Assembly (NCBI RefSeq): GCF_020510585.1
Contig: NZ_CP075190.1
Coordinates: 2,912,001-2,976,000, forward strand
DNA: 64,000 nucleotides
Origin: Ferribacterium limneticum
GTDB lineage: Bacteria > Pseudomonadota > Gammaproteobacteria > Burkholderiales > Rhodocyclaceae
Direction: 5' to 3'
The notes beneath the pieces are model-generated. The model searched no databases. It was not told the DNA's origin and was given only the letters and a program-made list of their open reading frames with translations. Positions within the stretch are counted from its first letter, which is position 1, and each line of letters opens with the position of its first letter. Below, in pieces: positions 28,279 to 54,825 of this stretch. The position numbers and the translations under genes were made by a program.

Positions 28279-29796
28279 ATGAACGAAGAATTCGAACAGA
28301 CCCCCAGCCCCTGGAAGCGCCGCTTCCTGATTCTCTTTGTTGTCACCATCGTCATCCCCGGCTTCATCGGCCTGCTGCTCCTCAAGCGCTTTGGCGAGGA
28401 CATTCCGGTCGACTACGCCAGCCCGACCGAGCACTTCAAATACGGCTCGACCGGCGGCGAGCATGAAATGGGCTTCCCCTACTGGATCTGGAAGGCGCTG
28501 CCCGAGGTCTGCCCGCAATATCTGCCGGGCAAGGGCTATCAGTCGCTTGGCATGGTCTATGAAAAGAAGCCTGACGGGAGCGACCGCGATCTGCCGATCG
28601 GCACCTCGCAGCGCCGCTTCCAGGGCGTGGACCGCGTCTTCGTCAATTGCGCCGCCTGCCATGTCAGCACCGTCCGCACCGCCCCCAACAAGCCGGCCAC
28701 CATCGTTCTCGGTATGCCGGCCGCCACCTTCAACATGAAGGGTTTCGAGGAATTCTTCTTCCGCTGCGCCGCCGATCCGAAGTTTTCCAAGGAATACATC
28801 CTGCCGGAAATCGAGCGTCAGGGCGGCGATCTCGATCTGCTCGACCGCTACCTCGTCTACCCCATCGCCATCGCCATCATGCGCGACCGGGTGCTCGCCC
28901 TGGCCGGGCGTTTCGACTGGGTGTTCAAGCAGCGCGAATGGGGCCCTGGCCGGGTCGATACCTTCAATTCGGCCAAGGTCATTTTCAATTTCCCGATGAG
29001 CCATCTCGACCCCAAGGAATTCGACGCCCCGGCTGATTTCCCGTCGATCTGGCGGCAGCGTCAGCGCAAGGAACCGAAGGAAATGCAGCTGCACTGGGAC
29101 GGCAACAACACGACCGTCGAGGAGCGCAACAAGAGCGCTGCCTTCGGCACGGGGACGACGCCGCCGACCATCGATATCGAACGCATCAAGCGCGTCGAAG
29201 CGTGGATCATGGATGCCGAGCCACTTCGTTTTTCGGCTTTTTTTCCGGTTGACCGTGGCATGGCCACCCAGGGCGCACCGATTTACCAAAAGTATTGCGC
29301 ATCGTGCCACGGCGCCTCGGGCAGCGACTTCAGCGGCGAGTACGTCGGCACCGTCGAACCGCTGGCCAAAATCGGCACCGACCGCCGCCGGCTCGACTCC
29401 TACACCTACACGCTGGCCGTAAACCAAGCCACGCTCTACGCCGGCTACCCATGGCGCTTCACGCATTTCCAGAAAACCCACGGCTACGCCAACATGCCGC
29501 TCGACGGTCTCTGGCTGCGCGCCCCCTACCTGCACAACGGCTCGGTGCCCACCCTGCGCGACCTGCTCGAACCGGCCGCCAAGCGGCCGAAAGCGTTCTA
29601 CCGCGGCAACGACGTCTATGACCCAGTGAAAGTCGGTTTCGTCTCGAACATCAGCGAAGCCGCCGGCAAGAAATTCTTCCGCCTCGACACCACCGTGCCC
29701 GGCAACGGCAACGGCGGCCACGAGGGCAAGGCCTACGGCACCGAACTGAGCGCCGGCGAAAAGGCCGCGCTGGTCGAGTTCCTCAAGACATTCTGA
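28279..29796 (+). CDS. RoxA/MauG-like di-haem cytochrome c
   Basis: 505 residues with one N-terminal membrane anchor (about 15-36) and haem motifs CAACH at about 124 and CASCH at about 340. The C-terminal segment APYLHNGSVPTLRDLLEPA is the hallmark of the RoxA/cytochrome-c-peroxidase superfamily. Family members oxidise polymers, proteins or peroxide at the cell surface. It is about co-linear with the next gene, a tandem paralogue. Residues about 316-327 (RFSAFFPVDRG) are encoded by a copy of the dispersed intergenic repeat, with T-runs unlike the rest of the gene, just before the second haem motif. Confidence 0.82.
   Translation: MNEEFEQTPSPWKRRFLILFVVTIVIPGFIGLLLLKRFGEDIPVDYASPTEHFKYGSTGGEHEMGFPYWIWKALPEVCPQYLPGKGYQSLGMVYEKKPDGSDRDLPIGTSQRRFQGVDRVFVNCAACHVSTVRTAPNKPATIVLGMPAATFNMKGFEEFFFRCAADPKFSKEYILPEIERQGGDLDLLDRYLVYPIAIAIMRDRVLALAGRFDWVFKQREWGPGRVDTFNSAKVIFNFPMSHLDPKEFDAPADFPSIWRQRQRKEPKEMQLHWDGNNTTVEERNKSAAFGTGTTPPTIDIERIKRVEAWIMDAEPLRFSAFFPVDRGMATQGAPIYQKYCASCHGASGSDFSGEYVGTVEPLAKIGTDRRRLDSYTYTLAVNQATLYAGYPWRFTHFQKTHGYANMPLDGLWLRAPYLHNGSVPTLRDLLEPAAKRPKAFYRGNDVYDPVKVGFVSNISEAAGKKFFRLDTTVPGNGNGGHEGKAYGTELSAGEKAALVEFLKTF
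29223..29258 (-). repeat. Dispersed 36-bp repeat copy inside a cytochrome ORF
   Basis: The stretch ends TTTTTTTCCGGTTGACCGTGG and matches the reverse complement of the copy at 6491 at about 32 of 36 positions. It is in frame, contributes no stop codon, and is conspicuously T-rich within a GC-rich gene. The corresponding region of the downstream paralogue (PKYPFPINAARAAAG) is of similar length, so the repeat may have replaced rather than merely lengthened the linker. Confidence 0.75.
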
Positions 29797-29810
29797 GAGG
29801 CGATGACATC

Positions 29811-31289
29811 ATGACTACCTCCTGCTCCTGCAAGACCTGGCTCAAATACGCCGCGCTCGCCCTCGCTGCCCTCGCCATCATCGGCGGGATGATCGGCTAC
29901 GACCGCGGCTTCCGCCAGTATCCGCAACCCGACTGGGTGACCGCCTCACCGGAAATGCGCTTCAAATACGGTTCGATCGGCGCCGAGAACGACGCCGGCG
30001 TGCCTTACTGGATTTTCTACGTGCTGCCCCGGATCTTTCCGGAAAAGCTGACTCAGGATGGTCTGGTCGTTCCCGGCGGCTACGCCTCGCTCGGTGTTTC
30101 GTGGGAACAGGGCCAGGAATTGCCGATCGGCTTCACCAAGAAAATCATCGGTTTCGCCCGTGTCGCCAACAACTGCGCCGTCTGCCACACCACCAGCTAC
30201 CGCGAGAAAATCGATTCCAACCCGGTTTTCGTCGTCGGCGGCTCGGCCCACACGACCAATGTCGAAGGTTTCTTCCGCTACTTGATCGACTGTGCCAAGG
30301 ACCCGCGTTTCAACGCCGACATCCTGATGGCTGAAATCAACCGGGTGACCCATCTGGACTGGATCGACCAGCTGCTCTACCGCTTCCTGATCATCCCGAT
30401 CACCAAGAAACGCCTGCTCGAACGCGAAGCCCAGTTCGCCTGGATTTACCGCAAGGATTTCCCGGAATGGGGCCGCGGCCGCGACGATGCAATGAACCTG
30501 ACCAAGTACTTCATGATCAAGGCACCGATGGACGACACCTTCGGCCCGACCGACATGCCCTCGGTGTGGAATCTCAAGAAATACGTCTGGGAAAAAGGCC
30601 ACCGGATGAACTACGCCGGTGACAGCAACGATGCCTACTCGGTGATCATGGATTCCGCCCTCGGCGTGCTCGGCGCCCCGCCCGCCAACAAGGCCGACTT
30701 TCTCGAGCAGGTCAAATGGCTCAAGGATTACCTCTCCGCATTGCCGCCGCCCAAATATCCCTTCCCGATCAACGCTGCCCGCGCCGCCGCCGGCATGACG
30801 GTGTTTGACGCCAATTGCGCCGCCTGCCATGCCAGCGAAAAGACCGGAACGCCGCTCCCCCTGGCTGATGTCGGCACCGACCGTGGCCGGCTCGACTCGT
30901 GGAACAAGGGTGCCGCCATCAAGGCCAATCAGGTCGTCAAGGACATGGGGCTGGAGCGCAAAGGGCTGGTCGAAGAAGACCTCATCGGTTACGTCGCCCC
31001 CTTCCTCGACGGCATCTGGCTCAAGGCGCCCTACCTGCACAACGGCTCGGTGCCCACCCTGCGCGACCTGCTCGAACCAGCCGCCCGGCGGCCCAAACTA
31101 TTCTGGCGCGGCTACGACGTTTATGACCAGACGAAAGTCGGCTTTGTCAGCGATTCGCCGGAAGCAAAACGCGTCGGCACCCGGCTCGACACCGCCAGCA
31201 AGGGGGGGAGCAACAAGGGGCATGAGTTTGGCACTGGCCTGTCGGCCAGCGAAAAGGACGTCCTGGTCGAATATCTGAAAACGCTGTAA
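29811..31289 (+). CDS. RoxA/MauG-like di-haem cytochrome c, tandem paralogue
   Basis: 492 residues, similar to the preceding gene throughout. It has an N-terminal anchor (about 12-30), the shared opening (EMRFKYGSIGAENDAGVPYWI), haem motifs CAVCH and CAACH, and the C-terminal APYLHNGSVPTLRDLLEPAARRPKLFWRG signature. It starts 14 bases after its paralogue. The pair probably arose by duplication and may form a hetero-complex. No substrate can be assigned from sequence. Confidence 0.82.
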   Translation: MTTSCSCKTWLKYAALALAALAIIGGMIGYDRGFRQYPQPDWVTASPEMRFKYGSIGAENDAGVPYWIFYVLPRIFPEKLTQDGLVVPGGYASLGVSWEQGQELPIGFTKKIIGFARVANNCAVCHTTSYREKIDSNPVFVVGGSAHTTNVEGFFRYLIDCAKDPRFNADILMAEINRVTHLDWIDQLLYRFLIIPITKKRLLEREAQFAWIYRKDFPEWGRGRDDAMNLTKYFMIKAPMDDTFGPTDMPSVWNLKKYVWEKGHRMNYAGDSNDAYSVIMDSALGVLGAPPANKADFLEQVKWLKDYLSALPPPKYPFPINAARAAAGMTVFDANCAACHASEKTGTPLPLADVGTDRGRLDSWNKGAAIKANQVVKDMGLERKGLVEEDLIGYVAPFLDGIWLKAPYLHNGSVPTLRDLLEPAARRPKLFWRGYDVYDQTKVGFVSDSPEAKRVGTRLDTASKGGSNKGHEFGTGLSASEKDVLVEYLKTL

Positions 31290-31315: not shown

Positions 31316-31785
31316 ATGAAAACCCAGTTCATGATTGCCGGCACCCTCTTATGGCTTTTACCTGCACCACCGCCGTCGGCACGGCGGACATGCTGTCACC
31401 CTCCGACCAGGCCGCCGCCCGCCTTCAAGGCTGCCGGCTTCAAACAGAAGGGCAAGCGCTGGCAAGCCTGCGACGACCCGACCCCGAGCTACACCCCGGG
31501 CGCCATCGCCGATGTCCGCAACCTCGACGGCGACGGCCTGCCCGAAGCCATCATCACCGAGGACGACAGCTACTGCTACGGCCACACCAGCGTCGGCTAC
31601 AGCTTGGTCAGCAAGCAGCCGAAAGGCAGCTGGAAACTGGTGACCAGTGACACAGGCATGCTCGACGTCCTCAACACCAAAGGCACCGGCAACTGGCCCG
31701 ACCTCGAAATCGGCGGCCCCGGCTTCTGCTTCCCGGTCGAACGTTGGAACGGCCGGCAATACGTGTAGCACCGGCATCAATACGA
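31316..31785 (+). pseudogene. Decayed paralogue of the secreted protein at 40574-41062
   Basis: The DNA aligns with the intact gene at 40574-41062 but carries three lesions. A one-base-type shift near 31345 and a compensating one near 31425 scramble residues about 12-36, so the proper signal peptide (MAFTCTTAVGT in the next frame) is lost. A TAG at about 31766-31768 replaces a Leu codon and cuts off the last residues, which are still recognisable beyond it (HRHQYEGKPCR). A 150-residue product could still be made. It follows the cytochrome operon with a good ribosome site (AAAGGAAGG). Confidence 0.75.
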
Positions 31786-31867
31786 GGGCAAGCCTTGTCG
31801 TCCGAGATAGCCGGTAAATTGGCGGCCGAACGTGATTGGCACACCCCAGGAGTGCATCCTTCGGGGT

Positions 31868-31901
31868 GCGGTCAACCGGAAATATTGGACAAAATTGAAA
31901 T
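31868..31901 (+). repeat. Dispersed 36-bp repeat copy
   Basis: GCGGTCAACCGGAAATATTG followed by GACAAAATTGAAAT, about 80 bases after the decayed paralogue and upstream of the RiPP operon. The intact paralogue at 40574-41062 also has a copy just downstream. Confidence 0.85.
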
Positions 31902-31980: not shown

Positions 31981-32280
31981 GTGAACAACTCAGGAAAACG
32001 AGCAACTGGTCTGCTTCGTCGCCTTTGCACGGCAGTGTTGGCGATTGCCGGTGCTTTGGGATTCTGCACGGTCGGCGCCAGTATCGAAGCCCCCTCGACG
32101 GAACGACAGATTCTCGAAGCGCGAGTCCTTGAAATGCGCAAGTTCCTGCACGATGCGGAGTCATCTGATGCCGGAATGGCGTCAGAGCGGGAATATGCCC
32201 AGTGGTTCAACTGGCCGAACTGGGGTAATTGGAACAACTGGCCGAACTGGCGGAATTGGGGTAATTGGTTCAATCGCTAA
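31981..32280 (+). CDS. RiPP precursor with eight tandem WxN motifs (GrrA-like)
   Basis: 99 residues from a GTG preceded by GGAGGGGTAG. Residues about 12-34 form a signal-peptide-like hydrophobic stretch (LLRRLCTAVLAIAGALGFC), then a charged helical leader (RQILEARVLEMRKFL). From W75 to N98 the protein is eight uninterrupted W-x-N triplets with x = F, P, G, N, P, R, G, F, ending in Arg. W-x-N is a known substrate motif of three-residue cyclophane-forming radical SAM enzymes (triceptides). The next gene encodes such an enzyme 20 bases downstream. GrrA/OscA precursors likewise have an export-like leader and a repetitive C-terminal core. Modification and number of rings are inferred. Confidence 0.82.
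   Translation: MNNSGKRATGLLRRLCTAVLAIAGALGFCTVGASIEAPSTERQILEARVLEMRKFLHDAESSDAGMASEREYAQWFNWPNWGNWNNWPNWRNWGNWFNR
32203..32274 (+). repeat. DNA encoding the (WxN)8 core
   Basis: Eight tandem 9-base units of form TGG-NNN-AAY encode the predicted modified core. Units 2 and 5 are identical (TGGCCGAAC); units 3 and 7 are both TGGGGTAAT. This suggests expansion by duplication of a multi-unit block. Confidence 0.85.
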
Positions 32281-32300
32281 TTTGAACGCTCAAGGGGGAA

Positions 32301-33575
32301 GTGCGGGTGAGCATCGCTTCGAATATCCAGTGGGTTCCAAGGCGCACCTTAAGAACAGTTCCATCGGCAATGGTGCGCTTCGATTTTGCTGATTTTTCCC
32401 CGGCAATTCGCACCCGCCTGCTCATATTGCAGCCAACCCCGTTCTGCAACCTCGACTGCGATTATTGCTATCTCCCTCATCGTGACTCGAAGGCGCGGAT
32501 GAGCCTGGAGACGGTTTGTCTGGCCGCCCGGCGACTGGCCGATGACGATCTGGCCGGCCCGGAACTGACGGTCGTCTGGCATGCCGGCGAACCGCTCGTC
32601 GTGCCGCCGTCCTTCTACGACGAGGCGATTCCGTTGGTTAGCGAAGTGCTCGGAGGGGCGTGCGCGGTGTCGCATTCAATCCAGACCAACGCCACCCTGG
32701 TCGACGACGCGTGGTGCAGACTGTTCAAACGCCACGGCGTGCGCATCGGCGTCAGCGTCGACGGACCAGCATGGCTGCACGACCTGCATCGCCACACCCG
32801 ACGCGGGCAGGGCACCCACCAGCGAGTGCTGCAGGGCATGGCCAGGCTGCGCGAGCACGGCATTCCGTATCACGCGATTGCCGTCGTCACGGGGGAAACA
32901 CTCGACCATGCCGATGCCTTTTGCGACTTTTTCCTGGAGCAAGAGGTTCACGAAGTCGGTTGCAACTTCGACGAGGCGGAAGGCTTGAACGACCGCTCCA
33001 GCCTCGCGGATCACGAGCCGGCCCACGCCCGATTTGTCTCGCGCCTGCTCGAGCGCCACATCCAGAGCGGCGGTCACCTCAACTTTCGGGAACTGGACAT
33101 GGCCATGCATCTGATCGCCGAGCCGCTGGCGACCTACCGCTGGCAAGGCCGGGAATGGCCGGACAACGCCCAGACCATCCCCTTCACCCTAATCTCGGTT
33201 GCGTACAACGGCGATTTCAGCACTTTTTCGCCCGAACTGCTCGGGCAGCACTCGGTTGAGTTCGGCGATTTCGTGCTGGGCAACGTGCATCGGGCCAGTT
33301 TTTTGGAAAGCACAGCAGGCCAGCGCTTCCTCGACCTGTGGGCGGCCATCAGGCGCGGAACGGGGGTATGTGAAGCAAGCTGCGCCCACTTCGGATTCTG
33401 CGGCGGCGGGGCGCCTGCCAACAAACTCTATGAAAACGGCAGCCTGGCCAGCGGGGAGACGCTGTACTGCCGGACCATGCTCAAGCGGCCGTTCGACGCG
33501 GTGCTGGCCAGACTTGAACGTGATGCCGCCCCCCGGAGCAGGCACGGAAACGCGGCAACAACGGAGACGGAGTGA
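32301..33575 (+). CDS. grrM: Radical SAM/SPASM cyclophane synthase, GrrM/OscB-like
   Basis: Up to 424 residues. The radical SAM cluster motif is CNLDCDYC (C49, C53, C56; QPTPFCNLDCDYCYLPHR). The C-terminal SPASM-type segment holds C357, C361, C367 and C390 within GVCEASCAHFGFCGGGAPANK and ENGSL...LYC. This CGGGAPANK arrangement is characteristic of the GrrM/OscB maturases, which join an aromatic ring carbon to a backbone-near carbon two residues on. The start is uncertain: GTG 32301, GTG 32307 (best spacing to AAGGGGG) or ATG 32370. It directly follows the W-x-N precursor and its stop overlaps the next ATG (TGATG). Confidence 0.87.
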   Translation: MRVSIASNIQWVPRRTLRTVPSAMVRFDFADFSPAIRTRLLILQPTPFCNLDCDYCYLPHRDSKARMSLETVCLAARRLADDDLAGPELTVVWHAGEPLVVPPSFYDEAIPLVSEVLGGACAVSHSIQTNATLVDDAWCRLFKRHGVRIGVSVDGPAWLHDLHRHTRRGQGTHQRVLQGMARLREHGIPYHAIAVVTGETLDHADAFCDFFLEQEVHEVGCNFDEAEGLNDRSSLADHEPAHARFVSRLLERHIQSGGHLNFRELDMAMHLIAEPLATYRWQGREWPDNAQTIPFTLISVAYNGDFSTFSPELLGQHSVEFGDFVLGNVHRASFLESTAGQRFLDLWAAIRRGTGVCEASCAHFGFCGGGAPANKLYENGSLASGETLYCRTMLKRPFDAVLARLERDAAPRSRHGNAATTETE

Positions 33576-34753
33576 TGCCATTGACTACTGAAAAGACTGT
33601 CGTTACGGAAACGATCGATGCCATGAAACGCCCGTTTTCCGAGTGCCGGTACTATGCCTTCTTCAGCTATTCCGAGGGCGACAATCGTGCTTGGAACAAA
33701 TGGGTGTCTTGTTTCAAGGATGAACTTTATTACTCGTTGCCCGGCCGTTTGCGCGGCATCCGGTTACCGCCGATTCACCATAGCGGAGAGTATCCACTGG
33801 TATCCGGCCTTCTGGATGGCAAATTGAAAGACAATGTCCGCGACACGTTTGTGCTTTTCCTGTTCGTGCACGACAACTACCTCGATTCGGGATGGTGCCT
33901 GAAGGAACTAGAACATTTCAAGGAGCATTTCGGGGATGACGGATTTCGCGAACGGTTGTACGTCATTGCGATGTCCAAGAATGCAATAGATGAATTGACC
34001 AAAGGTGACATGTGGAAGCGCTTGTGCCCCTTTAATGATCAGCTATGGGTGCCGTTTTACCAAGCGGCAAAACCCAAGCAGCCCATTCAGATTTATTCCG
34101 GAGAAGACGACGACGCCGAAGGCAAGCACCGCGTCGTTTCAAATACCTTCTGGAAGGCGTTCGTAGACATTCGTGAGGACCTTGCGGACAAAATTCTAGA
34201 CGCGGTGGCACGCAGCAAAACCGCGGACGTTGCTTCGCAGACGGAAGATCCTGAGATGGTCCGAATCTACATAGAGACCAACGAGCGGCAGGATGAATAC
34301 AAGGGGCCTCTTGCTGCCCAAGTCTACATAAGCTGGGATCAGGTCGTTGCCAGCGACCATGTCGAGCCTACGCTTCGGGTGCGGCCGACCGGCCTGCCGA
34401 TGAAGGAAATCAATGACCGCCCCTATCTGGACGATGCCGACGGCGTAGTGCTGTTGTGGGACGAAAAGACTTCCGCTTCGCTTTTGGCGCAAATCACGGC
34501 CGTGGAAGACAAGCTTCGCGGAAAAACTCCCATCCCGGGCATTATCGCCTACCCGATGAAGAACGGTGCGCCGGCGCCGGAGGAAGCTCATGTCCAGAAC
34601 TGGCAGGTATTGAAATTCGAGCCGGATGCGCAAGGCGGCCTGCGCATAGCCGATCAGGACAGTCTGGCACTGGTCATCTTCCTGACCAAGGTTTTGGAGC
34701 GCAAGCGTCAGCGCCTGCTGGCCGGCAAGTTCGCAGGCGAGGCAGCGAAATGA
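33575..34753 (+). CDS. TIR-domain protein coupled to the RiPP maturase
   Basis: 392 residues. The N-terminal domain (about 15-190) is TIR-like. It has YAFFSYSEGDN as box 1, VLFLFVHDNYLDS and a WCLKELE motif (W107, C108, E111) that matches the WCxxE catalytic Glu position of NAD-cleaving TIR domains. The C-terminal part (about 220-380) looks like a second Rossmann-like segment (AAQVYISWDQ; DADGVVLLWDEKTSASLLAQITAVE). No signal peptide is visible. ATG 33575 overlaps the radical SAM stop, and its own stop overlaps the STAND gene start (ATGA), so the three are made together. Its DNA looks less GC-rich than its neighbours. NADase or scaffold activity is inferred. Confidence 0.78.
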   Translation: MPLTTEKTVVTETIDAMKRPFSECRYYAFFSYSEGDNRAWNKWVSCFKDELYYSLPGRLRGIRLPPIHHSGEYPLVSGLLDGKLKDNVRDTFVLFLFVHDNYLDSGWCLKELEHFKEHFGDDGFRERLYVIAMSKNAIDELTKGDMWKRLCPFNDQLWVPFYQAAKPKQPIQIYSGEDDDAEGKHRVVSNTFWKAFVDIREDLADKILDAVARSKTADVASQTEDPEMVRIYIETNERQDEYKGPLAAQVYISWDQVVASDHVEPTLRVRPTGLPMKEINDRPYLDDADGVVLLWDEKTSASLLAQITAVEDKLRGKTPIPGIIAYPMKNGAPAPEEAHVQNWQVLKFEPDAQGGLRIADQDSLALVIFLTKVLERKRQRLLAGKFAGEAAK

Positions 34754-37700
34754 GCTGCGCTGACGGACTCGGGGTTTTCCGTGTTCCGACGTCTCCTTAT
34801 CCGGGCCTGCGTCCTTTCCTCGACCACGAGGCGTCGCTTTTTCTCGGTCGCGGCCAGCAAGTTAAGGATATTGTTCAGCGCCTCGAGGAGACCCAGTTCG
34901 TTGCGGTAATCGGTGGTTCGGGGTCCGGGAAGTCCTCGTTGGTGCGGGCCGGGGTCGTTCCGAAGCTGCGCGGCTTCGGCATTCCAGAGGCGGGGGATTA
35001 CTGGGTACCGGTGGTGTTCACTCCGGGAACCACGGCAACACCGGAATCGGAAGCGAGTCAGAGGGATGAAGAACGTACGGCCAGCCAGACGCCCATCACT
35101 AGGCTGGCCTGGAAGTTCTCCCAAACGCTCAACATGTACACGCTGCATAATGACCCGAAGACGGTCGATGACGTGCGGGAAAGCGCGCGACGTAGCGATA
35201 TCGCGGCCATTTTCCGTCGTGGATCCGGCTTTGCTCGCCTGATCGATGCCTTCTCGAAAGATCTGCCAGCCCGCGGGCCGAAACCGGAAAATGCCCGCTT
35301 TCTCGTCGTCATCGATCAGTTCGAAGAGCTCTTCCATCCCAACAACAATCCCAAGACCAAGGGAAATGAAGATACCCGGACCCTGATCGAGGCAGTCATC
35401 GATCATTTTTTCAGTCCGCATCCGCGCTGCTTCGTCATCATCACCATGCGCAGCGAGCATCTAGCCGACTGCGCGGGCTATCTCGAATTGCCTGACGCCA
35501 TCAACGAATCCGTCTATCTGGTTCGGCGGCCTGATAAAGAACAATTGCGCCAGGCGATCACGGGGCCAGCTAACAAATTCCTCCGCACGCTGCAGCGGGG
35601 CGACGACGCTGCCGGCCTGCCCGAAGACATCGCATTCGATGAGACCGTCGTCAAGCGGCTGCTTCAGGACGTGGAAGGGATCGCCGACGACCCGGACCAC
35701 CTGCCCCTCCTGCAGCATCTGCTCGCCAGGATCTGGCAAGTGGCCAGCAAGCGTTGTGGCGTCGATGGCGAGCACAAGGTGCCGAACGCGGTTCAATGGG
35801 CCGACCTCGAAGGCGCCGCCGACCCCGCGTGCAAAGAAGAAGTGGGCTGGCTGATCCGGCTGGACGCCGACCGGAAGCAGGAGAATAAGGAAACGCTGAA
35901 CACCCTGCGTGCCAGCCTGGAAAATTGGGCGCAGGCGACCTATGGGGAGAAGTCCGAAGGCGACAGGAAGCATCTCGACTTCGTCCTGCGCCGCCTGGCC
36001 TTCAAGGATCCCAACAATGGCACCTACAACCAGCAGCGACTGGATGTAGACGATCCCGACCTGTTCGCAGGCGAACCCGAGCCTCCGACTGATCTGCGAG
36101 CCTTGCTCAAAAAGGGCTACCTTGATTCCGTCCATTACCTGTATTGGGACCGGGAAAATCCGCTGCAGGTGACGCTCAAGGTTTCTCATGAATCCTTCAT
36201 CCGCGGCTGGGCGCATTTCAAGGGACTGGTCGACGAGGAGGCCGTTCGCTTCGAAGCATTTCTGAGCGTGTTGCGCTGCTGTTCACAATGGCGGGACGAG
36301 AAATGGAGTCCGGAACGGCTGCTCGGACAGCCGGAGCTGATCCGGCTCGACGAAGCCAGGCTGGGCCCGGTGTTTGCCGAACGCGACAAGCGCGACGACT
36401 GGTTTCGCACCCTGAAACAATATCGGGACGGCGACCGCCTCGGTGACGTCGAGGGCGAGGTTGCGAACTACATCGAGGCGTCGCGAGCGAAGCTTAAATC
36501 TGAAGCCGATGCCCAGCGTGCGCTGCAGGAGCGGGAGCGCAAGGCACAGGAAGATGCGCGGCTCGCGGAAGAGCAGGCGCGTAACGCACGAGAAGAAGCT
36601 CGACTGGCGAGCGAACGGGAGAAAGAAGCGGACCGGCGCAGGGAGGCCGAGGAAAAGGCCCACGAATTGTCACTAAAAGCGGAAGCCGACGCGAAACAGA
36701 TTCTCGAAGAACAGGTCCGTCACAGCAGGGAAGAAGCCCGCCTGGTACGTCTGCGCGACAGCGAAGAGAAACAAAGAATTCAAGCCGAGGCTGACAGATC
36801 AAAGGCGAAAGCGTGGGGCTGGGGGTTTCTAGCTGTTGCCGCAGTTATCGCATTGTTCGTGGCGGCGCCCTACCTGCGCACCGGTGGCGTTATGAAAGCC
36901 AGCCAAGACTTCGCGATGGCGCGGCAGACGGTCGAGCAACGAAGTTATGGCTTGGAACCGGATAGCCGTCTTGCCGGGCATGAACTGGATAAGCTACTGA
37001 TGGCAACGAGCCAGGTCGCGGATGGACAGGCGAAAGGGGAATACATCAATCAACCGCCCACGAAGTGGTTCAGTTTGTTTCCCCAGATATCCCTGGCGCA
37101 GCGCCTGGTATATCTTCAGGACACCGAACCCGTGGTCAACGGGAATTTGCGCAGCCGGATGATTACAGGCATTTGGCGCAGCGACCGGAAACCCCCAGAA
37201 AATAAGGAATTCGACCCGGACAATCCAATAGCGTGCAAAGGTAACAGCCTGTCCGGTATCTTTTATCCGGCACGCGGAACGATGCGCGGAATATTCTTGC
37301 CGGAGCGAAAACCAACCGACGATATCAACTTCTACGCGGCGACCTATGCCAGAAGCGCTACCGGGCAGGAAGCGACCTGCACGCTCAGCCCCACCAGCAT
37401 TTGGCGCGAGGCGTTCTTTTTTGACCCGGTCGTATTGCTGGATGCCAACGATCGCTACATGACGATTTCGCGTAGCGGCCAATTTGTCCAGCGAGGTTCA
37501 GTCAATCTCTACCGGATTGTCTGGGACGATGATCCGGCGGTTCCCAGCGCCAAGGTCGATCAGATTGGTCAGGTGATCGGCGAGGAGGCCGTAAATGTAT
37601 TGAAGACGGAGATTAAATCCAAACAGGAAGGGGCTGACCCGAAGGTAAAGAGCGTTCGTACCTGGCCGGAAGACGGTGGTGTCGGGGTGGAGGTCGGCGG

Positions 37701-38394
37701 GAAGAGCTGGCGCCTGTTTGACGACGACGCCCGGGAGCTCGAGGTTTCAGATGGGGACGAGTGGAAGAAATTGGCTGACGCGTCGCCCGATTGCAAAGCC
37801 CTGGAGAAGCGGCTGCGGGACAAGGGAATCCTGAATCCCACCTTTGATGTCAGCACAAAGAGTGATGGTGCGCATTGTTTCGTCCTACAGATACCCAAGC
37901 CGCCCGCGAGCAAGGAGCCTGGATCCACGCTGGAGGCTGGAAATGCGGCGGCACACGCGGATCAGGGCGGACCTCCCGAAAAAATTGCGGTTGGCGTCTA
38001 TAACGCGCTGATTCCGGGCGATTTGCAAGACGTTATACCGACGGCGGTTACCGCGATCCAGCAATTTTCCAGTCGAAAAGCGGCAGAAGGCGCGACGTGG
38101 ATGGTCGGTGTCAGTGGAAAACATGCGGGCTGGATCGCGCTGGCGAAGTGCGATGGCACGGGCAAGAAATGCAGCTACTCCGGTACGCCATGGAGCACGT
38201 CGGCGCTGGCAAGACTGGGCAAGGCGGTGGTTGCGGCTTCCTGCGATCCGCTATCCGATGCCCCGAAAGCGATGCCGAGGACTGTTGACAAATACGTGCT
38301 GCAATGCCCGCCATCGCAAGCGAGTGGTCCGAAATCGAGCCCCGGAATCGCTTCCGGGGCCAACCAAGGTGCCGCAGAGAGAAGGGATGACTGA
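34750..38394 (+). CDS. STAND NTPase with coiled coil, membrane helix and novel C-terminal domain
   Basis: 1214 residues. The N-terminus PYPGLRPFLDHEASLFLGR is the classic entry to nSTAND/NACHT-like NTPases. Walker A is GGSGSGKSS (G55-S62) and Walker B is RFLVVIDQFEEL (D189). A winged-helix-like region runs to about 560. A charged coiled coil (about 575-685) leads into one membrane helix (about 688-708, WGWGFLAVAAVIALFVAAP). About 500 residues follow without WD40 or TPR repeats that I can see and which I do not recognise. STAND proteins act as ligand-triggered switches in immunity and signalling. Coupling to TIR and a cyclophane peptide maturase suggests one system. Confidence 0.8.
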   Translation: MSCADGLGVFRVPTSPYPGLRPFLDHEASLFLGRGQQVKDIVQRLEETQFVAVIGGSGSGKSSLVRAGVVPKLRGFGIPEAGDYWVPVVFTPGTTATPESEASQRDEERTASQTPITRLAWKFSQTLNMYTLHNDPKTVDDVRESARRSDIAAIFRRGSGFARLIDAFSKDLPARGPKPENARFLVVIDQFEELFHPNNNPKTKGNEDTRTLIEAVIDHFFSPHPRCFVIITMRSEHLADCAGYLELPDAINESVYLVRRPDKEQLRQAITGPANKFLRTLQRGDDAAGLPEDIAFDETVVKRLLQDVEGIADDPDHLPLLQHLLARIWQVASKRCGVDGEHKVPNAVQWADLEGAADPACKEEVGWLIRLDADRKQENKETLNTLRASLENWAQATYGEKSEGDRKHLDFVLRRLAFKDPNNGTYNQQRLDVDDPDLFAGEPEPPTDLRALLKKGYLDSVHYLYWDRENPLQVTLKVSHESFIRGWAHFKGLVDEEAVRFEAFLSVLRCCSQWRDEKWSPERLLGQPELIRLDEARLGPVFAERDKRDDWFRTLKQYRDGDRLGDVEGEVANYIEASRAKLKSEADAQRALQERERKAQEDARLAEEQARNAREEARLASEREKEADRRREAEEKAHELSLKAEADAKQILEEQVRHSREEARLVRLRDSEEKQRIQAEADRSKAKAWGWGFLAVAAVIALFVAAPYLRTGGVMKASQDFAMARQTVEQRSYGLEPDSRLAGHELDKLLMATSQVADGQAKGEYINQPPTKWFSLFPQISLAQRLVYLQDTEPVVNGNLRSRMITGIWRSDRKPPENKEFDPDNPIACKGNSLSGIFYPARGTMRGIFLPERKPTDDINFYAATYARSATGQEATCTLSPTSIWREAFFFDPVVLLDANDRYMTISRSGQFVQRGSVNLYRIVWDDDPAVPSAKVDQIGQVIGEEAVNVLKTEIKSKQEGADPKVKSVRTWPEDGGVGVEVGGKSWRLFDDDARELEVSDGDEWKKLADASPDCKALEKRLRDKGILNPTFDVSTKSDGAHCFVLQIPKPPASKEPGSTLEAGNAAAHADQGGPPEKIAVGVYNALIPGDLQDVIPTAVTAIQQFSSRKAAEGATWMVGVSGKHAGWIALAKCDGTGKKCSYSGTPWSTSALARLGKAVVAASCDPLSDAPKAMPRTVDKYVLQCPPSQASGPKSSPGIASGANQGAAERRDD

Positions 38395-39778: not shown

Positions 39779-40036
39779 GGTCCTGTTCCTTGAAGGGTGA
39801 GTGGTAAAAAGCGTCGAACGCCAGCCCGAATCATGCCTGCGGAATTATGGCATGCCGGGGCGTGCAGGGTGGCGGCATGGCCGCTCCCGCCCAGACGGCC
39901 GGTCAGAGTGTCTGAAGAGCAGTGGGGGTTTCCCGGAATCACCAACACCACGCCCGAACTTCCAGACCTGAATCGTATCCAACCTGTGCCGCTAAATGGC
40001 AACACCGTTGCCAGTGACGTCCAGCGAGGAGCCAGC

Positions 40037-40276
40037 ATGGAACGACCCGTACACAGCATGAACAACCTGTTTGCCCAACTCGGCAAGCCGAGCGACGACG
40101 ACGCCATTGAGCGGTTCATCGAAACTTACCGCCCACTGGCCGGCGCCATGCAACTCCATGAAGCATCCTTCTGGAGCGCCTCGCAGGCTTGTTTCCTGCA
40201 CGAGGCACTTCTTCATGACGCCGATTGGGCGGAAGTTGCCGACAAGTTGAACGTCGAATTGCACGCCCGGCACTAG
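40037..40276 (+). CDS. DUF2789 family protein
   Basis: 79 residues. The core MNNLFAQLGKPSDDDAIERFIETYRPL and the FWSASQACFLHEALLHDADWAEVADKLNVELH end match DUF2789 along its length. These are small helical cytosolic proteins of unknown function. The frame is open farther upstream to 39797, but only the part from 40037 is family-like. A start at 40058 (MNNLF) is also possible. Confidence 0.8.
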   Translation: MERPVHSMNNLFAQLGKPSDDDAIERFIETYRPLAGAMQLHEASFWSASQACFLHEALLHDADWAEVADKLNVELHARH

Positions 40277-40537: not shown

Positions 40538-40573
40538 CGCCTTGTGGTGCTCATTCTGAAAGGAAAGTATTCG

Positions 40574-41062
40574 ATGAAAACGAATCTTCTGATCGCCGGC
40601 GCCCTCCTGGCCTTTACCTGCACCACCGCACTCGGCGCGCCCGAAAAGCTGTCGTCAGCCGACTTGGCCGCCGCTTTCAAGGCTGCCGGCTTCAAGCTCA
40701 AGGGCAAACGCTGGCAAGCTTGCGACGATCGGTCACAAGGCGCCACCCCAGGTGCCATTGAAGATGTTCGCGATCTCAACGGCGACGGCCTGTCCGAAGC
40801 GATCATTACCGAAGGCGGCACCTTCTGCTACGGCAACACCGGGGCTGGCTACAGCTTGGTCAGCAAACAGCCCAATGGCAACTGGAAGCTCATCACCAGC
40901 GGCACCGGCATGCTCAACATCCTGACCACCAAAGGAACCGGCAACTGGCCAGACATTGAAATCGGCGGCCCCGGCTTCTGCTTCCCTGTCGAACGCTGGA
41001 ACGGTCGGGAATATGCGTTGCACCGCCATCAATACGAAGGCAAGCCTTGTCGGCGGAAATAG
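40574..41062 (+). CDS. Secreted protein of unknown function (VCBS/FG-GAP-like segment)
   Basis: 162 residues with a signal peptide (MKTNLLIAGALLAFTCTTALGA). The mature part includes DLNGDGLSEAIITEGG, which resembles the Ca-binding DxNxDG loop of FG-GAP/VCBS repeats, a GWx-rich centre and four conserved Cys positions. I do not recognise a named family. A decayed paralogue lies at 31316-31785. The ribosome site AAAGGAAAG precedes the ATG at 40574. Both copies are followed by the dispersed repeat. Confidence 0.75.
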   Translation: MKTNLLIAGALLAFTCTTALGAPEKLSSADLAAAFKAAGFKLKGKRWQACDDRSQGATPGAIEDVRDLNGDGLSEAIITEGGTFCYGNTGAGYSLVSKQPNGNWKLITSGTGMLNILTTKGTGNWPDIEIGGPGFCFPVERWNGREYALHRHQYEGKPCRRK

Positions 41063-41091
41063 CCGCCTGAGCTACTCGCCAAGCTCGGTTC

Positions 41092-41127
41092 CCACGGTCA
41101 ACCGGAAATTTTGGCCAAAATTGAAAT
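41092..41127 (+). repeat. Dispersed 36-bp repeat copy (near consensus)
   Basis: CCACGGTCAACCGG, then AAATTTTGGCCAAAATTG, then AAAT. It begins 29 bases after the stop of the secreted-protein gene. It contains the perfect palindrome AATTTTGGCCAAAATT. Confidence 0.9.
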
Positions 41128-52278: not shown

Positions 52279-52645
52279 TAGCACTGCTAGCGCTTATCAA
52301 GGCAAGTAGTTAGTCGCGGCGTCTCACCGAGCCCAGTCGGCTGCTACCAGTCTTTAGCTGCCTGGCAGGTATTTCGGTCGAATGGCTCTTGATGGCAGCC
52401 GATGGCTGCCGTTGCTGACGAACGAGGCAGACCCGGGACGTTCTCGATCAACCGAGCTGGTTGCGCAAATACAAATCCTCGATTTCACTTTCACCCCCAC
52501 CCTAATTGAACGGAATATTATTTCTGCGGTCGACTAGCTGAGGTTGGCCGGCTTGCTGGCGTCGAATCCTTGGCTACCCGCCGATTGAGCGGGGGTGGCG
52601 AATCGATGGGTTTTCCGGTTTTTCTGGCCTCATCGGGGAGAAGGA
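52279..52645 (+). other. Intergenic region upstream of the TIR gene
   Basis: 367 bases with no supported gene or repeat. The last 150 bases include an AT-rich patch near 52500-52530 suited to a promoter. Confidence 0.35.
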
Positions 52646-53557
52646 ATGACCGATATATTCCTGAGTTATACCGAACGGGACCGGGAGACGGCGCGGCGGA
52701 TTGCCGAGGCTCTTGGTTCGGCGGGCTGGAGCGTCTGGTGGGACCGGCGGATTCCGGCCGGGGAAACTTGGCGCAGCGTGCTTGAGCATGCGCTGGAAGA
52801 CATGCGCTGCATGGTGGTCTTGTGGTCGGCCAAATCGATTGAAAGCGAATGGGTTTACGAGGAGGCCACCGAGGGGCGCCGGTTGGGCAAGCTCGTGCCG
52901 GTGATGATCGAAGCCGTTCGCCCGCCGGCCGGTTTTCGTGAGATTCAGGCGGCCGATCTGACGGGCTGGGATGGCTCGCCCGATTTCGATGGCCTGCGCA
53001 TGTTGCTGGCCGATCTCGAAAATCTGCTGGGCAAGCCGGTTGCTGTTGTACCGGAACGACCGGTGAAACCGATTCACACGGGGCCCGGAGAAGCAGGCCA
53101 GGCTTACGACCCGGCCGATCTGGCCGCCGTAAAACCCAAGGCGCCCGGGTGGCCCAAAAGCAGTTTGGTCGGCATGGCTGTCGCTGGCGCGCTGTTGCTG
53201 GCGGTGGGGGCCGGCTACCTGGCTTTGTCCGGGCGTGAACCGACGGTGCTTGAACCTCAGGCGCGTCAACCGGAACGGCCGGAAACGCGCCCCGGCCCGG
53301 TGGCGCCAACACCTGCGCCAGTGGCCGACGCCCCGGCCACCAAGAAACCTGCGGCAGAATCAGTGACCGCAGAAGTGCCGATCCGGACCGAAAAACTGGC
53401 GCAGAAGCCGGCCGCGCGGCCTATCGACGAGAAAGTCAAAACAACGCGGGCGCCGGCGATCAAGGCGCGCTGCGCCGATCTTCTCTCCCGGGTTCAGTTG
53501 GGCGAATCGCTGTCCTACGAGGCGCAAGCCGTATTCCAGAAGGAGTGTCAGCAATGA
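52646..53557 (+). CDS. TIR-domain protein with membrane helix
   Basis: 303 residues. An N-terminal TIR domain (about 1-135) has MTDIFLSYTERDRETA, WSVWWDRRIPAGETW, VVLWSAKSIESEWVYEE and catalytic-position E73 (WVYEE, four after W69). A linker leads to a single membrane helix (about 172-195, GMAVAGALLLAVGAGYLAL) and a Pro/Ala/Thr-rich segment of about 85 residues ending in a short Cys-containing helical motif. The TIR domain is predicted cytosolic with the tail in the periplasm. The stop overlaps the next start (ATGA). The start follows GGGGAGAAGG. Confidence 0.85.
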   Translation: MTDIFLSYTERDRETARRIAEALGSAGWSVWWDRRIPAGETWRSVLEHALEDMRCMVVLWSAKSIESEWVYEEATEGRRLGKLVPVMIEAVRPPAGFREIQAADLTGWDGSPDFDGLRMLLADLENLLGKPVAVVPERPVKPIHTGPGEAGQAYDPADLAAVKPKAPGWPKSSLVGMAVAGALLLAVGAGYLALSGREPTVLEPQARQPERPETRPGPVAPTPAPVADAPATKKPAAESVTAEVPIRTEKLAQKPAARPIDEKVKTTRAPAIKARCADLLSRVQLGESLSYEAQAVFQKECQQ

Positions 53558-54825
53558 CGACCATTTTTCACAAAACGGGCGCCGCCGGGTTCTGCATAAC
53601 GGCGTTGTGCGTCGCGCTGCTCGCCACGGGCTGCGACAGCCTGCGCGAGAAACCGGCAACACCGGCCGCCCCCGCCACCAGCTCGCAGCCCTCTTCTTCC
53701 ACCCCGCCCGCCGCCCCGCCGCCAACGCAAGCCTACGACAAGGCGGTGTTGAGCGCAGCCACCGCCTTGTTCAAAAATGCCAAACTGCCGGCCGAGGGCA
53801 TGCCGGCGCAGGCCAAGTACGCAGTCGTCATCGACCCGCTGATCGACGGCATGACCGGGACGCAATCGGTCGCCACGCAGGCGATGGGCCTCCGTCTGGC
53901 CAACATGATGCGCGAGCAGTATCCGCAGTTCGACGTGAAGGCGTTTTCGGCCGCCAACGTGGCCAGGAGCCCGCTCGTGCTGATCGGCACCTTCACCGGC
54001 GTCAACGCCGAGCGCAAGACGGCCGGGCCGCGCGAGGCTTACCGGATTTGCCTGGCGCTGGCCGATCTGCGCAGCGGCAAGCTGGTCAGCAAGGGCCTTG
54101 CCTTCGCCTTGCCCGACGGCGTCGATCCGACGCCGCTGGCCTTCTTCCGCGATGCCCCGGCCTGGTCCGAAGACCCGGCGACCGAGGGCTATATCAAGAC
54201 CTGCCAGGGGACGAAGGCCGGCGACCCGATCAATCCGCTCTACCTCGACCGCATCATCGCCGCCTCGCTGGTCGCCGAAGCCATAGCCGCCTACGATGCG
54301 GGCCGCTATCAGGAGGCGCTGGAGCTCTATGGCAACGCCCTGGCCACGCCGGCCGGCAACCAGTTTCGCGTCCATAACGGCATTTACCTCGCCCACTGGA
54401 AGCTGGGGCACCGGCAACAGGCGGCCGCGGCCTTCGGGAAGATCGTCGATTACGGCCTCGAACACCGCCGCCTGGCCGTCAAATTCCTCTTCCGGCCCGG
54501 CTCGACGGCTTTCGTCAATGATCCCAAGCTCAGTGGCCCGTATCCGGTCTGGCTGAAGACCATCGCCCAGCGCACATCAGGCGCCGGTAGTTGCCTGGAA
54601 GTGACCGGCCACACCAGCCCGACCGGCCCAGAACCCTTGAACGAACGGCTGTCGCTGTTGCGGGCAGAATTCGTCAAGGCGCGCCTGGAAGGAGCAGCGC
54701 CGAAACTGGCCAAACGGATGATTGCCAACGGTGTCGGCTCGCGGCAAACGATGGTCGGCAACGGCCGCGACGATGCCAGCGATGCGCTGGATCGGCGGGT
54801 GGAGTTCAAGGTGATCGGATGCTGA
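53554..54825 (+). CDS. OmpA-like lipoprotein partner of the TIR protein
   Basis: 423 residues. A lipoprotein signal ends in LLATGC (lipobox, about residue 26). A Pro/Ser-rich linker precedes a middle domain (about 60-330) that includes a TPR-like stretch (AYDAGRYQEALELYGNALATPAGNQFRVHNGIYLAHWKLG). The C-terminal OmpA domain (about 345-423) has EVTGHTSPTGPEPLNERLSLLRAE and a DRRVEFKVIG end, and would bind peptidoglycan. Its start overlaps the TIR stop (ATGA). The pair may sense envelope state and pass it to the TIR domain across the membrane; this is inference. Confidence 0.83.
   Translation: MTTIFHKTGAAGFCITALCVALLATGCDSLREKPATPAAPATSSQPSSSTPPAAPPPTQAYDKAVLSAATALFKNAKLPAEGMPAQAKYAVVIDPLIDGMTGTQSVATQAMGLRLANMMREQYPQFDVKAFSAANVARSPLVLIGTFTGVNAERKTAGPREAYRICLALADLRSGKLVSKGLAFALPDGVDPTPLAFFRDAPAWSEDPATEGYIKTCQGTKAGDPINPLYLDRIIAASLVAEAIAAYDAGRYQEALELYGNALATPAGNQFRVHNGIYLAHWKLGHRQQAAAAFGKIVDYGLEHRRLAVKFLFRPGSTAFVNDPKLSGPYPVWLKTIAQRTSGAGSCLEVTGHTSPTGPEPLNERLSLLRAEFVKARLEGAAPKLAKRMIANGVGSRQTMVGNGRDDASDALDRRVEFKVIGC

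Follow-up and report, generated by a model that had tools for sequence, protein, structure and literature searches.

A W-x-N repeat peptide operon coupled to TIR and STAND genes in Ferribacterium limneticum and its lineage

We analysed a 64-kb window of the genome of Ferribacterium limneticum, the window being the whole stretch of DNA examined here; the host chromosome comprises 4.42 Mb in one contig. On the forward strand of this Dechloromonas-like host, at 31981..38394, the genes for a precursor peptide, a GrrM/OscB-class maturase, a TIR protein and an nSTAND1 NTPase lie consecutively. The initial annotation, made from the sequence alone, had named these four genes and their positions correctly and had described the peptide pathway as "translationally fused" to the TIR/STAND module. 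The maturase and TIR genes share 1 base and the TIR and STAND genes share 4 bases; the genes are thus coupled, not fused. As also stated at the outset, neither a protease nor an exporter gene was seen among the four operon genes. Of the named organisms in which we found this operon, Dechloromonas hankyongensis XY25 is the closest relative.

The precursor gene (31981..32280, + strand) starts with GTG and encodes 99 amino acids. Residues 75-98 form eight in-register W-x-N triplets, the substrate motif recognized in the initial annotation, and the core (32203..32274, +) reads WFN WPN WGN WNN WPN WRN WGN WFN. At the N-terminus (31981..32079, +) a Sec-like signal peptide is predicted from a positive n-region, a hydrophobic stretch and V-G-A at residues 31-33, the putative cleavage site being read by eye. 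A database search yielded a family of 48 proteins, the window's own included. Each carries 6 to 11 W-x-N triplets (exactly eight in 33 of the 48), the position between W and N is usually occupied by G, N, P or F, and the leader motif RVxxxR is found in 44 members. A simple signal-peptide rule fits 42 of the 48, including the window copy, which agrees with the signal-like leader noted earlier; several of the six precursors failing the rule look shortened or differently started. Judged by these sequences, the precursor belongs to a genuine gene family. One relative is named rSAM-associated Gly-rich repeat protein in UniRef. The window precursor failed to match the GrrA/OscA1 model (TIGR04260) even with E-values up to 1 allowed, and one precursor from the second genus described below scored 18.9 bits, below the cut-off of 31. 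A second core type, WTNWPKWSKWSNWANK or near it, with W-x-K triplets, forms the precursor end at loci L017, L018, L020, L022 and L027. Next to GrrM, such W-x-K triplets beside W-x-N triplets would predict Trp-Lys three-residue rings. The core at L021 mixes W-x-N and W-x-K.

The adjacent gene (32301..33575, +) encodes a radical SAM/SPASM maturase of the cyclophane-forming GrrM/OscB class. It matches TIGR04261 with 390.3 bits (cut-off 310), in keeping with the class first assigned to it, and also matches PF04055. A GTG at 32307 is a likelier start than 32301 because of its ribosome-binding site. Counted from this GTG, the radical SAM CX3CX2C motif reads CNLDCDYC at residue 47 (position 32445). 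Cysteines of the C-terminal part lie at 355, 359, 365 and 388, as read from the single sequence without comparison to a SPASM alignment. The enzyme does not qualify as an FxsB-class maturase, as TIGR04269 gave 106 bits (cut-off 370).

The TIR protein of 392 amino acids (33575..34753, +) combines an N-terminal TIR domain, containing WCLKE (33893), with a second Rossmann-like domain at residues 225-390. Its best fold match is to plant TIR domains, and the glutamate of the WCxxE motif aligns with the plant one. This WCxxE-region residue, E111, is invariant across 42 aligned homologues and is presumably the catalytic glutamate. It does not qualify as an FxsC-type TIR, since none of the NCBIfam models matched it with an E-value of 1 or below.

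The last gene (34750..38394, +) encodes an nSTAND1 NTPase of 1214 amino acids, which matches PF20703 above the cut-off (182.6 bits) and has a Walker A motif, GGSGSGKS (34912), and a Walker B stretch, FLVVIDQFEE (35299). The identities initially proposed for the TIR and STAND proteins are hence borne out. Among the PADLOC 2.0 system models the STAND protein gave just two weak P-loop matches (mads_3 and mads_8). Hydropathy predicts a single transmembrane segment at residues 691-709 (36820..36876, +), followed by a beta-rich, predicted periplasmic C-terminal part of ~500 residues with eight cysteines (36877..38391, +). The relatives, judged on uncut proteins, likewise show a single mid-protein transmembrane stretch, with the exceptions of L009 (none over threshold) and L025 (a second, weak stretch). 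The N side of the stretch is the more positive one in 17 of 18 homologues, L007 being the odd case. The C-terminal part measures 442-565 residues in the homologues. Four of its cysteines (C829, C877, C1015 and C1043) are invariant in 18 aligned sequences. Its cysteine total is even throughout, with 4 or 6 in 17 of 17 homologues and 8 in the window; this count leaves out L011 and L014, whose sequences run into contig ends, L026, of which only 83 residues remain, and also L009. In the N-terminal parts the totals are both odd and even. Owing to the membrane crossing, the four invariant cysteines and the even totals, the C-terminal part is probably periplasmic, and probably disulfide-bonded. Its predicted structure is beta-rich (pLDDT 82.6, pTM 0.81), and structure comparison of this model returned no trustworthy match.

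To follow the pairing across genomes, an order sample of 399 genomes was searched with GrrM irrespective of TIR. A close GrrM (E <= 1e-60) was found in four of the 399, namely the window's own genome and three genomes of one genus in another family. In all four an nSTAND1 gene adjoins GrrM. Above the cut-off, nSTAND1 genes number one in four of the five genomes counted and two in G376, and because they are so rare per genome an adjacency to GrrM by chance is very unlikely. In the three genomes of the other genus, the TIR and STAND genes and the precursor and maturase genes converge tail-to-tail. Two of them have a TIR_2 protein next to STAND; the third contig ends where the STAND gene starts. 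It was Pfam, not the window sequences, that revealed the TIR and STAND proteins of this genus, and both gene order and TIR type differ from the window's. The precursors of this genus contain WPN and WRN close to their ends. Its STAND-like match starts at position 103 of 379, which leaves the P-loop part unseen; the protein again contains a single transmembrane stretch, and its C-terminal part spans ~400 residues. In nine of the 12 genomes of this genus's family sample GrrM was not found.

A scan starting from the TIR protein covered 26 loci, corresponding to 23 genomes once L031 (Ruminococcus, 28% identity, no hit) and the second contigs of counted genomes (L026 and L028) were left out. GrrM is present in 11 of the 23, each time directly upstream of TIR. 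One of these loci, L027, is broken: at L027:3933-5354 the N-part of the maturase and the C-part of the TIR protein share one open frame, reflecting a deletion or an assembly fault. Related TIR genes, mostly with STAND, occur without a peptide or maturase gene at L010-L016, L019, L023, L025, L029 and L030; at least several such loci have, by eye, a TetR-like regulator and transporter-like genes as neighbours. The TIR search of the order sample found four of the 399 genomes, with GrrM in the window's alone. G179 and G289 hold TIR and STAND alone, and the contig of G108, seemingly that of L029, ends at TIR. In a sample of relatives the TIR gene occurs in 2 of 60 genomes, own included, so that the operon is patchily distributed.

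In a class sample, 3 of 369 genomes, own included, had a GrrM match. Two loci from this sample and three of seven plasmid records make up five distant GrrM loci at which 20 neighbours were scanned with Pfam, and none of these loci has a TIR/STAND neighbour. The coupling of GrrM to TIR/STAND is therefore lineage-specific. Conservation of the neighbourhood, chosen beforehand as the point on which the initial interpretation would be judged, hence holds within the order and not at the distant loci. On the whole, the initial interpretation is partly supported.

On a TIR tree of 21 rows, presence of the peptide genes requires three changes, in comparison to 7.3 in shuffles; three changes were reached by 0 or 2 of 500 shuffles, depending on the label counted. 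Three groups are common to the GrrM and TIR trees: one pairs the window with L006, another pairs L007 with L008, and the third comprises five Rubrivivax/Leptothrix-type loci. Between the window and D. hankyongensis, identity amounts to 96% for the core (26 residues), which is the most conserved part of the operon, 83% for GrrM, 73-74% for TIR and 74% for the NTPase.

Taken together, we favour a reading in which the peptide, cross-linked and exported, serves as an accessory input, contributed by a ribosomally synthesized and post-translationally modified peptide (RiPP) pathway, to a two-gene TIR-STAND alarm, and we assign it a probability of about one half (0.48). In the cytosol, GrrM would join the Trp and Asn of each triplet, so that the precursor acquires as many as eight three-residue cyclophanes; its signal peptide would then direct the product into the periplasm via Sec. 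The STAND protein is predicted to hold its NTPase in the cytosol and its disulfide-rich domain in the periplasm, beyond the one transmembrane segment. As peptide and exported domain are predicted to share this compartment, sensing of the peptide, or of whatever acts on the peptide, by the STAND domain is the natural reading. The exported domain may monitor presence, state or removal of the peptide, which could act as ligand, as bait or as co-sensor with an outside trigger. Once triggered, the NTPase would oligomerise and recruit or activate the co-translated TIR protein, which would cleave NAD+ so that growth stops or the cell dies. Each step past export, including peptide-receptor contact and cell death, is one that we infer, and the same applies to the peptide acting as signal, toxin or ligand.

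Several observations weigh against this reading or restrict it. The order sample provides two independent cases only. In 12 of the 23 TIR-bearing genomes no GrrM was detected in the assembly at E <= 1e-20, most of these being metagenome assemblies of unstated completeness. Because these 12 have TIR-STAND alone, an obligate ligand role of the peptide is excluded. Moreover, the exported STAND domain can be aligned where the peptide is absent, and peptide binding is thus not its sole purpose. The exported domain is also the fastest-changing part, at 44% identity between the window and D. hankyongensis, the reverse of what a tight receptor-ligand pair suggests. Such sequence change would fit better if the domain sensed a trigger that itself changes, the peptide being an unvarying bait or co-factor, than if domain and peptide formed a plain ligand-receptor pair. 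The trees conflict over L021 (Schlegelella koreensis), whose GrrM groups with the window's clade (96/96) and whose TIR groups with the Rubrivivax clade (100/99). The L021 branch is long on the TIR tree, and the conflict may reflect either an exchange of peptide and alarm modules or a long-branch artefact. For the window STAND, the charge difference across the membrane is only one. No PADLOC 2.0 model matches the TIR protein or names the gene set, no relatives were found in viral contigs or plasmids, and no experiment on any member was found. As to distribution within the lineage, the peptide goes with the alarm and not the reverse: since the alarm occurs without peptide genes and the opposite case was not found in the lineage, the peptide is best read as an accessory input.

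The same distribution bears on other explanations. Trp-rich cross-linked peptides can be antibacterial, and the peptide could be a weapon or toxin against other bacteria, with TIR-STAND serving as the producer's trigger or self-sensor, or as another, independent weapon driven by the shared promoter. In favour of this, the operon shows no immunity gene of its own, and Kaur et al. speak of the analogous peptide as a toxin or signal (PMC7159879). The lack of an exporter or protease among the four genes, the persistence of TIR-STAND without the peptide and a nearly constant core, where weapons often diversify, make this account unlikely. Alternatively, peptide and alarm may be operon neighbours without direct contact, the peptide having its own role in the envelope and TIR-STAND sharing its transcription only. 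The distant GrrM loci, the TIR-STAND genes found apart from GrrM and the tree conflict all speak for such independence, which we nevertheless regard as rather unlikely given that every close GrrM gene of the order sample, the window's own included, adjoins nSTAND1, in two different arrangements.

A released signal, by which kin or density is measured through the periplasmic STAND domain and the response is set by TIR, would agree with peptide and exported domain being in one compartment, and a near-invariant core suits a shared signal. However, a system so rare and patchy leaves few neighbours to share it, and no gene for export across the outer membrane is among the operon genes; we consider a released signal quite improbable. 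Returning to the accessory-input reading, a more specific form of it is that a membrane-spanning bacterial immune receptor guards the exported cyclophane peptide, which would be deliberately placed in the periplasm as bait or co-ligand for the C-terminal domain of STAND, and that capture, damage or loss of the peptide, e.g., by a phage or a competitor at the envelope, fires the TIR protein. This form is tentative and, on balance, somewhat unlikely. If true, it would be the first function assigned to a Gram-negative GrrM-class peptide in the open-licence literature, in at least two arrangements.

The surroundings of the operon show further features. It is flanked by two diverged direct copies of a 0.5 kb segment (31352-31901 and 40608-41127; pieces 79-94% identical), which encodes a small secreted-looking protein with a weak FG-GAP match below the cut-off. 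Inspected by eye, the copy at 31316-31768, upstream of the operon, is degraded, and the one at 40544-41062, downstream of it, is intact. Two RoxA-like dihaem cytochrome genes (28279-31289) lie directly 5' of the operon; such genes also precede it in D. hankyongensis and are found without the operon in G021 and G002. What directly follows the upstream cytochrome gene in G021 is the counterpart of window 39797-40273, which looks like an empty site of the operon. Elsewhere in the window, there is a second TIR gene (52595-53557; TIR_2, 90 bits), with a transmembrane stretch by eye; the gene after it (53545-54825) encodes an OmpA-like lipoprotein. Among 35 open reading frames of the window, one matches the Shedu (SduA, DUF4263) model at 7e-10 and one PD-T4-6 at 1e-6.

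Recurrence of the pairing in other betaproteobacteria suggests a testable role for such peptides in bacterial immunity or signalling, and the conserved operon offers an immediate, simply testable hypothesis for the function of GrrM-class peptides. The open-licence literature held no report of GrrM with TIR/STAND, which is weak evidence of novelty, and none of a function for any Gram-negative GrrM-class peptide. The idea of a peptide combined with TIR/STAND, known from actinobacteria, is here extended to Gram-negative cells, whose periplasm would be the meeting place of peptide and receptor domain. If true, this meeting would tie RiPP biosynthesis to immunity of the nucleotide-binding leucine-rich repeat receptor type across the cell envelope.

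With regard to known systems, the operon shares its maturase family and the Trp-x-Asn substrate motif with the GrrM/OscB triceptides, in which OscB enzymes link Trp C7 to the C-beta of Asn or Asp (PMC11002830). The passages of that work considered here describe the chemistry and do not mention TIR/STAND partners, and the window precursor differs in lacking the GrrA/OscA1 match. Plant TIR receptors (RUN1, RPV1 and RPP1) and bacterial TIR effectors have in common with the window the TIR fold, the WCxxE glutamate and the division into sensor NTPase and TIR effector. In the window, by contrast, TIR and NTPase are separate genes, and the putative sensor part lies beyond a membrane.

The closest precedent, missing from the initial annotation, is the actinobacterial FxSxx system. 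Kaur et al. (2020) linked FxSxx peptides, a radical SAM/SPASM enzyme and a metallopeptidase to a TIR-bearing AP-ATPase and suggested a peptide toxin or signal (PMC7159879). These FxSxx/VMAP ternary systems likewise place a small, radical SAM/SPASM-modified peptide beside TIR and a STAND-class NTPase, and there too the conflict system includes the peptide part as an optional accessory. Their own features are a zincin-like metallopeptidase core, a TIR fused to an AP-ATPase with tetratricopeptide repeats, and an actinobacterial host. No metallopeptidase gene was found among the four operon genes or nine nearby proteins scanned, which cover part of the flanking genes, and no vWA/MoxR gene among the four. 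The window instead combines the GrrM class, W-x-N repeats, a Sec-like signal and a separate TIR gene with an nSTAND1 protein that carries a transmembrane segment and an exported domain. Thus, a radical SAM-modified peptide system coupled to TIR/STAND has a precedent in that work; the window operon resembles the FxSxx system in outline and departs from it in the features tested, i.e., maturase class, TIR class and metallopeptidase.

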